Shown here in pieces: positions 7,722 through 8,943 of a DNA stretch of 56,336 nucleotides. The position numbers and the translations under genes were made by a program. Source of the stretch: an uncultured bacterium (lineage in GTDB: Bacteria > Omnitrophota > Gorgyraeia > Ghiorseimicrobiales > Ghiorseimicrobiaceae); NCBI GenBank assembly GCA_913009335.1, contig CAJVXN010000010.1, positions 1 to 56,336 on the forward strand. Direction: 5' to 3'. Position 1 is the first letter of the stretch. Each line of letters starts with the position of its first letter. The notes below the pieces were generated by a model. The model ran no database searches. It saw only the letters and a list, made by a program, of their open reading frames with translations, and had not been told where the DNA came from.

Positions 7722-8567
7722 ATGAATAAACTAAAACCAGAATTCGTTGATAAATGTAGAAAACTACGCATAGAAGGATATTCTTTAGGAGAGATATCTT
7801 TAACAATAGGATTAGCGAGGAGTACTATTTATGGTTACGTGAATGATATATCTTTGAGTTTAGAACAAAAGGAAAATATAAGAAATAGAAATAGGATAAA
7901 AAATAAAAATAGAGTTAACGTTAGAAAAGGTAAATGTCTTCCCGGCAGGGAAATTATAAAACCGAAGTCGTGGTCTAATGATTTAGTGCATATTGTTTCG
8001 CATTTTATGTTTGATGGCAGGGTTGATAATGATGGCTGTATTTATTATAGCAAAGATGAGTATCAAATTAATCACCTAAAGAAACTTATTTATAAATTAT
8101 TTAGATGTAGGCCAAGAATTCAATCAAGAGATAATGGTGTTTACGGTTTAAGCATTTATAATGTAGAGTTTGCCGATTATATTAATAAGCGTAAACACAA
8201 GCTGCTTTCTTATTTAAATAATGGCGCGTCTCAATTAAGAAAGAAGATATTTTTGAAGGCATTTTTTGATGATGAAGGTAGTGTTTTTTTTAAAGCGGAT
8301 AAGCGGCGTGTACGCGGGTCGCAAAAATCATATCTAATACTTGAAAATGTAAGGAATTTGCTGTTTAGTTTTGGTATAAAGGGTAGAATAAATAAAGAAG
8401 CTGTTTACATCGAAATTTCTGAACGCAATAATTTAGCAAAATTTTTTAAAAAAATCAATTTCTCTCCCGAAATATATATTAATCCATTCAGAAAAAATGG
8501 AATTTGGAAACGAAGAATTTCTAAGAGAGAAATATTAACTTTATTATTAAAATCATATCAGGTTTAG
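7722..8567 (+). CDS. Free-standing HTH plus LAGLIDADG-type homing endonuclease
   Basis: N-terminal HTH (YSLGEISLTIGLARSTIYGYV) and two LAGLIDADG-like motifs (VSHFMFDGRVDNDG and LKAFFDDEGSVFF). Confidence 0.8.
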   Translation: MNKLKPEFVDKCRKLRIEGYSLGEISLTIGLARSTIYGYVNDISLSLEQKENIRNRNRIKNKNRVNVRKGKCLPGREIIKPKSWSNDLVHIVSHFMFDGRVDNDGCIYYSKDEYQINHLKKLIYKLFRCRPRIQSRDNGVYGLSIYNVEFADYINKRKHKLLSYLNNGASQLRKKIFLKAFFDDEGSVFFKADKRRVRGSQKSYLILENVRNLLFSFGIKGRINKEAVYIEISERNNLAKFFKKINFSPEIYINPFRKNGIWKRRISKREILTLLLKSYQV

Positions 8568-8617
8568 AAAATTTATTAGTTTTGTTCATTGATAATTTGC
8601 AGAGTATTGAATTCTGT

Positions 8618-8943
8618 GGGCCGCTAGCTCATCCGGTAGAGCACTACCCTCGATAAAGGGGGCGCTGCTGAGTAATCAGTAGTAGAAAATCTTGTAAATT
8701 GCGGGAAAACCTGGGGTATTTCAAGATACTCAATAGTTTTTGAGTAACAATGCTTGAATGCAGACAATCCGCAGCCAAGCCCTAATGAAGATTTTTTAGG
8801 GAAGGTTCAACGACTATAATCAAGACTCCCATAAATTGGTTAAAATTTATGGGAGATGGGATAGTCTGATCTGTATGGCGACATACAGCTAACATTAATG
8901 TTTAAGGTAGGGGTGCCGTGTTCGAGACACGGGCGGCTCACCA
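8618..8943 (+). tRNA. tRNA-Lys(UUU), interrupted by a group I intron in the anticodon loop; exons 8618-8650 and 8901-8943, CCA encoded
   Basis: Joined exons give a full cloverleaf: acceptor GGGCCGC/GCGGCTC, D arm GCTC/GAGC, anticodon stem CTACC/GGTAG with loop CTTTTAA, T arm CCGTG-TTCGAGA-CACGG, A73, CCA. Confidence 0.93.
8651..8900 (+). mobile_element. Group I intron (250 nt, no internal ORF) inserted after U33 of tRNA-Lys(UUU)
   Basis: P1 with U8650.G8658 wobble (exon CCCU vs IGS GGGG); P10 TAAA (8654-8657) with 3' exon TTTA; P element TTGCGGGAAAA and Q AATCCGCAGCC; R GGTTCAACGACTAT and S GGATAGTC with P7 GACTAT/ATAGTC; P8 CTCCCATAAATT/AATTTATGGGAG; P9 CTGTATG-GCGA-CATACAG; omegaG8900. Confidence 0.93.

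Follow-up and report, generated by a model that had tools for sequence, protein, structure and literature searches.

Introduction

How mobile introns acquire endonucleases is an open question, and a review of the field (PMC3984707) sets out, in its treatment of the subject, two models for the gain: invasion by an endonuclease gene and collaborative homing. The latter, described by Hausner and colleagues, is known from two phages, and the review proposes it as one way for mobile introns to obtain their enzymes. Here we describe a locus in a 56,336-nucleotide stretch of DNA from an uncultured bacterium of the phylum Omnitrophota (hereafter the window; contig CAJVXN010000010.1, assembly GCA_913009335.1), in which a free-standing gene for a helix-turn-helix (HTH) LAGLIDADG homing endonuclease stands directly before a tRNA-Lys(UUU) gene that is interrupted by a group I intron without an open reading frame (ORF). 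As described for the phage systems (PMC3984707), the intron would destroy the site of an enzyme that is encoded outside it; unlike in those descriptions, the setting is a bacterial chromosome, the predicted cleavage is that of an HTH-bearing LAGLIDADG enzyme, the target is a tRNA gene, and two phyla are involved, with and without the intron.

We consider it likely that the enzyme is aimed at the tRNA-Lys(UUU) gene and paired with the ORF-less intron by collaborative (trans) homing, a reading in which cleavage, its exact site, joint conversion and immunity are predicted steps. Its direct observational basis is the anatomy of the locus, its conservation, the co-occurrence of enzyme gene and intron (8/13 intron-bearing against 0/53 intronless loci), a scattered distribution and a series of decay states. 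Further support comes from the adjacency of all 14 close homologues to tRNA-Lys, the single intron site, extra tRNA-Lys 5' halves, selection and invariant residues in the enzyme, and its predicted fold.

The homing enzyme I-Ssp6803I is of the PD-(D/E)XK type. It, too, is associated with a group I intron that interrupts a bacterial tRNA gene in the anticodon region, but it is encoded within its own intron, and a probable relative lies inside the tRNA-fMet intron of the host genome. I-DmoI and PI-PfuI have two LAGLIDADG motifs per chain and the same fold as the window enzyme; their coding sequences belong to an archaeal intron and to an intein, whereas the window enzyme is free-standing, carries an N-terminal HTH and shares ~20% identity with them over the aligned part. 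WhiA (DUF199) also combines a LAGLIDADG-like domain with an HTH, which is located at the opposite end from that of the window enzyme; the two proteins are 8% identical, and the window enzyme retains both acidic motifs. In genomes of the Candidate Phyla Radiation (CPR), homing endonucleases are also tied to a structural RNA gene, but there it is an rRNA gene that is targeted, with ORFs located within the insertion, and the abstract of that study states no link to tRNA-Lys (PMC11270868). Neither a free-standing homing endonuclease gene (HEG) combined with a tRNA-Lys intron nor collaborative homing at a chromosomal tRNA gene was found reported in the open-access literature, subscription journals being outside the search.

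Anatomy of the locus

The features of the locus, in window coordinates, are as follows.

7074..7634, + strand: frr, ribosome recycling factor, the conserved neighbour upstream of tRNA-Lys in Omnitrophota (ORF; tblastn)
7722..8567, + strand: free-standing HTH-LAGLIDADG HEG, 281 aa (PF14528; fold match; dN and dS between the G255 and G197 homologues)
7737..7841, + strand: predicted N-terminal HTH, residues 6-40 (sub-threshold HTH_7 match, E 0.023; three model helices, H6-17, H22-29 and H33-40)
7986..8018, + strand: LAGLIDADG motif 1, residues 89-99, VHIVSHFMFDG (alignment with D98 invariant; model helix H86-98)
8250..8279, + strand: LAGLIDADG motif 2, residues 177-186, FLKAFFDDEG (D183, D184, E185 and G186 invariant; model helix H171-185)
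8568..8617, + strand: 50-bp leader from HEG to tRNA, with a boxA-like TTGTTCATTGATAA at 8582-8595 (sequence reading; putative function)
8618..8650, + strand: tRNA-Lys(UUU) 5' exon, last base U33 (ARAGORN on the spliced product: tRNA-Lys(ttt))
8651..8900, + strand: group I intron without ORF, 250 nt, final base G, between U33 and U34 (RF00028 at 8641-8888; bounds from ARAGORN on spliced exons)
8901..8943, + strand: tRNA-Lys(UUU) 3' exon, encoded CCA included (ARAGORN on spliced exons)

The reading frame of the HEG (7722-8564, stop 8565-8567) is open throughout and encodes 281 aa counted from the ATG. Since its stop at 8567 lies 83 nt upstream of the first base of the intron (8651), the ORF is not intron-encoded. 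Directly upstream of the HEG is frr, which precedes tRNA-Lys at nearly all Omnitrophota loci that were read (tblastn with the window frr). The first-pass annotation, made from the letters of the window, had proposed a 281-aa ORF with an N-terminal HTH and two LAGLIDADG motifs, flanked by frr and ending 50 bp before a tRNA-Lys gene with an ORF-less intron. The coordinates (8567 and 8618) agree with the distance, and the open frame, a PF14528 match, both motifs, the flanking frr and the lack of an ORF in the intron were all recovered; the HTH was confirmed in part, being helical in a structural model but reaching only the sub-threshold HTH_7 match by sequence. The order of frr, HEG and intron-bearing tRNA-Lys was found again in 7 other Omnitrophota genomes and is therefore not due to chance.

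The intron matches the group I intron family over its full length (Rfam RF00028, 92.1 bits, E 2.1e-22, 8641-8888). ARAGORN overlooked the split tRNA-Lys gene but recognised tRNA-Lys(UUU) once exons 8618-8650 and 8901-8943 had been joined. At the junction (U33|intron...G|UUUAAGG) the 5' exon ends in U and the intron in G, as expected of group I. When the tRNA genes of the host genome (92.6% complete) were read piecewise, this tRNA-Lys(UUU) was the sole copy detected, the other tRNA-Lys detected being CUU. Splicing of the intron is thus probably essential, and the intron is probably self-splicing.

The boxA-like motif of the leader (TGYTCTTTRA-type; GCTCTTTAACAA in the clearest cases) is found shortly 5' of many tRNA-Lys genes with the intron present or absent, for example at L027, L141, L142, L143 and window 8582-8595.

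The enzyme

The window ORF matched LAGLIDADG_3 (PF14528) in Pfam at E 3e-9 with 37.4 bits (cut-off 22.5) over residues 177-246. The acidic positions of both motifs (D98, D183, D184 and E185) as well as G186 are invariant across 8 homologues with identities down to 32%. An AlphaFold2 model built on the 8-sequence alignment (mean predicted local distance difference test score, pLDDT, of 87) displays an N-terminal three-helix HTH followed by a LAGLIDADG domain with two motifs. In VIA-align, where the structure listing took in the LAGLIDADG part (residues 77-281), the model matched the monomeric LAGLIDADG nucleases PI-PfuI (Z 19.2) and I-DmoI (Z 16.8); it also matched WhiA, with Z 17.2 and a sequence identity of 8%, and the bI3 maturase, with Z 13.0. 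The WhiA family was not among the Pfam matches up to E 1, and a search of solved structures with the enzyme sequence gave none at E<=1. No relative was found in viral contigs in two scans, one with the single protein and one with the alignment. By profile, motifs and fold, the window ORF is assigned to the LAGLIDADG homing endonucleases in their monomeric two-motif form, with cleavage activity as a predicted property. Comparison of the enzymes of G255 and G197 gave nonsynonymous (dN) and synonymous (dS) divergences of 0.19 and 1.03, which fits purifying selection and thus a protein that would be functional for as long as it is retained.

Enzyme gene and intron across Omnitrophota

Six further close homologues of the enzyme were obtained from 384 Omnitrophota genomes and one more (L146) from GTDB genome contigs. 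All 8 genes, the window's included, have frr on one side and an intron-bearing tRNA-Lys on the other. Five of them are intact; of the other three, the G209 gene carries a frameshift, the G380 gene has lost an internal segment and the G286 gene survives as a remnant. The frameshift could reflect decay or else an assembly error.

A signature of the intron core was detected in 12/384 genomes, every time in tRNA-Lys at the identical site, with the enzyme gene or its remains in 7 and without it in 5. With L146 added, the enzyme gene or its remains are present at 8/13 intron-bearing loci, whereas all 53 tRNA-Lys loci without the intron that were read in Omnitrophota lack them (Fisher p 2e-7, with no correction for kinship). 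The 13 intron-bearing loci form a decay series, with five intact genes, one frameshifted, one internally deleted, one remnant and five absences, and the intron is retained in all of them; a search at E<=1e-5 found no enzyme gene in the genomes of the five enzyme-free intron loci. The co-occurrence of enzyme and intron-bearing tRNA-Lys, which the first-pass annotation had suggested as a check, therefore holds in Omnitrophota in so far as the enzyme is found only at intron-bearing loci. The two do not form an obligate unit: 5/13 introns lack the enzyme, three enzyme genes are decayed, and six CPR homologues adjoin intronless tRNA-Lys. The annotation's suggestion that the enzyme cleaves intronless tRNA-Lys genes or flanking DNA and so mobilises intron and enzyme together is supported in part by these comparisons.

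Empty sites are found in the window's own family, where the tRNA-Lys genes of G001-G003 are intronless, begin 5-39 nt past frr and lack the enzyme gene. When intron presence is mapped on a tree of Frr from 51 loci, the 13 carriers need 13 changes, at least 8 of which are forced by well-supported branches, and the scatter is no less than that of shuffled labels; the comparison genomes were chosen by the analyst, and the figure describes that sample. Pairs of the same genus differ in intron presence (G197/G215, G380/G153 and G352/G111). These data support an intron scattered over the host tree as would be expected of a mobile element. The intron and HEG trees agree coarsely (f37 apart from f1/f9) and follow the host families, with only five intact Omnitrophota HEGs, mutually about 47-69% identical, in the comparison. 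As the intron tree largely matches the host families, transfer may be mostly within families. Together, the distributions of enzyme and intron suggest that both spread by aiming at one target.

CPR relatives and the constant partner

A contig scan together with 383 genomes of one CPR class yielded six distinct CPR homologues, including ones from Yanofskybacteria and Kaiserbacteria, and the three that were aligned show 32-40% identity. All six share the strand of a neighbouring intronless tRNA-Lys(UUU) and either start 0-62 nt past the tRNA end or have an open frame that overlaps it. One of these tRNAs was called a stop tRNA by ARAGORN, and its anticodon loop CTTTTAA identifies it as tRNA-Lys(UUU). 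Thus 14/14 close homologues from two phyla (8 Omnitrophota, 6 CPR) abut tRNA-Lys(UUU), and the constant partner of the enzyme across the two phyla is this gene, not the intron. Because the CPR homologues adjoin intronless tRNA-Lys and 5/13 introns lack the enzyme, the tRNA-Lys(UUU) gene is taken as the anchor of the enzyme and the intron as an apparent added partner.

No tRNA-Lys(UUU) without a HEG was present in 1.2 Mb of CPR control sequence, and a search for a displaced part of the tRNA beside three CPR enzyme genes gave nothing above shuffled sequence. A purine-purine mismatch at 27-43, present in all six HEG-bearing CPR tRNA-Lys genes, was considered as a protective change and dropped, as tRNA-Lys(CUU) of CPR and of the host genome has the same mismatch (loci L206, L180, L188, L270 and the CPR tRNA-Lys genes).

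Extra tRNA-Lys 5' halves

In G210, G197 and G286, a second copy of the tRNA-Lys 5' end (29, 30 and 33 nt, respectively) precedes the enzyme gene, at 4, 1 and 12 nt from the frr stop, which is the position of the tRNA start in many intronless genomes; the complete intron-bearing tRNA-Lys follows after the enzyme gene. These extra halves end at or just before the intron site, except that the one in G286 extends 8 nt into the intron, and they are 97-100% identical to the tRNA-Lys of their own host. Their near-identity to the host tRNA despite the divergence of the HEGs points to recent events. They are most simply explained by a break at the intron site, of which the right side would have been repaired properly and the left side end-joined, with the old 5' half left over; alternatively, the HEG was formerly intron-encoded and came to lie outside the intron through a tandem duplication.

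The extra halves had been regarded as unique proof of insertion and were lowered to supporting evidence on account of shorter fragments in intronless genomes. Stray tRNA 5' ends of 10-16 nt occur beside small palindromic inserts in three intronless, enzyme-free genomes, and at the intronless loci L123, L130, L132, L134, L135 and L139 short tRNA-Lys 5'-end fragments occur close to frr, each with a small palindromic insert after it. The inserts are perhaps elements resembling repetitive extragenic palindromes that hit the tRNA gene.

Proposed collaborative homing and alternative explanations

Under collaborative homing, the enzyme would cut an intronless tRNA-Lys(UUU) gene, the probable site being that of the intron in the anticodon loop or close to it, and repair of the break from a donor with frr, HEG and intron-bearing tRNA-Lys would copy both the intron and the enzyme gene. 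The intron would then interrupt the site of the enzyme and make the new allele immune, while splicing itself out of the transcript would allow the essential tRNA still to be made. Once no intronless targets were left, the enzyme gene would decay and the intron would stay.

Several observations weigh against this explanation. The main difficulty is that the CPR enzymes stand beside uninterrupted tRNA-Lys genes; only a site that spans the 3' end of the tRNA would explain why they do not cut the chromosome that encodes them. The course of the intron tree, mostly along host families, would also fit old introns with many losses. The extension of the G286 copy into the intron suggests an origin in an intron-bearing allele or aborted repair synthesis, and the stray tRNA ends at enzyme-free loci offer another possible origin for the longer halves.

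The HEG may once have resided in the P1 loop of a tRNA-Lys intron, until a duplicated tRNA 5' half put a fresh 5' exon beside the ribozyme core and left the HEG outside. We regard this origin, which could hold together with collaborative homing, as unlikely. It would account for the order of tRNA 5' half, HEG, complete 5' half and intron in the three genomes, including the 8 intron nucleotides of the first copy in G286, and other introns of the host genome do carry ORFs near the 5' exon; yet no present-day copy inside a tRNA-Lys intron was found in the 384-genome search or at the loci read, and the free-standing CPR relatives at intronless tRNA-Lys imply that an intron-encoded state need not be ancestral. 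Rather unlikely, in our assessment, is an enzyme that homes to the tRNA-Lys gene or adjacent DNA solely to propagate itself, with the intron as an independent passenger that gains little or nothing. The absence of the enzyme from the 53 intronless Omnitrophota loci and the extra 5' halves that stop at the intron site argue against such an enzyme, while the CPR homologues, the five introns without enzyme and the related free-standing ORFs described below, 31/38 of which abut tRNA genes that are mostly uninterrupted according to ARAGORN, speak for it.

Plain vertical inheritance of an ancient locus of frr, HEG and intron-bearing tRNA-Lys, with many losses and no recent mobility, appears quite unlikely. 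Although both trees run broadly along host families, the carriers are scattered like shuffled labels, with as many changes as carriers, and extra halves that closely match the host tRNA stand against intact HEGs that have diverged much further. We consider it highly improbable that, instead of being an active endonuclease, the protein acts as a maturase in splicing or as a regulator derived from LAGLIDADG enzymes, as in the case of WhiA. Its gene adjoins the intron, and the fold also resembles those of WhiA and the bI3 maturase; however, neither motif shows any variation at its acidic positions, the CPR relatives lie beside tRNA genes that have no intron to splice, and five introns persist in genomes in which no enzyme gene was found at the threshold given above.

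A possible wider class of enzymes at tRNA genes

Of 38 free-standing HTH-LAGLIDADG-like ORFs, a set that includes four close homologues at tRNA-Lys, 31 overlap a tRNA gene or are at most 150 bp away from one, compared with 3.4% of 382 similar-sized CPR ORFs in 1.2 Mb; the nominal p for 31/38 overstates independence because many of the 38 are orthologous loci, and about ten contexts remain. About ten tRNA types are found beside these ORFs, with Ala-GGC, Tyr-GUA and Arg-CCU recurring. We lean, by a modest degree, towards a large class of free-standing HTH-LAGLIDADG enzymes in Omnitrophota and CPR that have tRNA genes as their anchors, with a particular tRNA type for every subfamily (among them Lys-UUU, Ala-GGC, Tyr-GUA and Arg-CCU). 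The tRNA genes would serve as homing sites much like the attachment sites of integrases, and the Omnitrophota tRNA-Lys subfamily would represent the step of gaining a group I intron partner. If true, the class would constitute a sizeable set of selfish genes living off tRNA genes in bacteria about which little is known.

The family of the window enzyme occurs in two states: in CPR it is free-standing and its tRNA-Lys neighbour has no intron, and in Omnitrophota it has an ORF-less intron in that gene as its partner. Both states, the decay series and the extra tRNA halves that mark the site make the transition directly testable in vitro.

No intron was detected in the tRNA genes beside several groups of these ORFs, namely those abutting or overlapping tRNA-Ala GGC (L029, L031-L035, L037, L038, L043 and L045), at tRNA-Tyr (L172, L175, L177, L179, L182, L186 and L189) and at tRNA-Arg CCU (L180, L181 and L184). 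A second free-standing LAGLIDADG ORF of the host genome (L017, 873-1664 (-), contig C16) runs into an intronless tRNA-Cys(GCA).

Other introns and elements of the host genome

The host genome contains four group I introns, which by hand reading interrupt tRNA-Lys(UUU) (window 8641-8888), tRNA-Tyr(GUA), tRNA-Asn(GUU) and tRNA-fMet; the matches outside the window are L014 (C2:33323-33573), L015 (C29:10192-10498) and L016 (C18:2337-2537). tRNA-Ser was an early guess for the host of the C2 intron and was replaced by tRNA-Tyr(GUA). No second copy of tRNA-Lys(UUU), tRNA-Tyr or tRNA-Asn was present among the tRNAs found in the genome. Judged by eye, the tRNA-Asn intron encloses an HNH-like ORF and the tRNA-fMet intron an I-Ssp6803I-like PD-(D/E)XK ORF. 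Group I intron matches were obtained in 201/384 Omnitrophota genomes (177 above the Rfam cut-off) and in 2/14 control genomes with the same search.

Further LAGLIDADG_3 matches in the host genome (L018-L021; contigs C16, C11, C31 and C20) are intein-like and lie in gyrase, a sugar-nucleotide decarboxylase, a NifU-like protein and ribonucleotide reductase. Downstream of the locus, window 8944-11250 places 2.3 kb and three small ORFs between tRNA-Lys and tRNA-Leu(UAG), one of which (10806-11096) encodes a single-domain GIY-YIG protein. In relatives of the window, tRNA-Lys, tRNA-Leu(UAG) and tRNA-Gly(GCC) form a close array.
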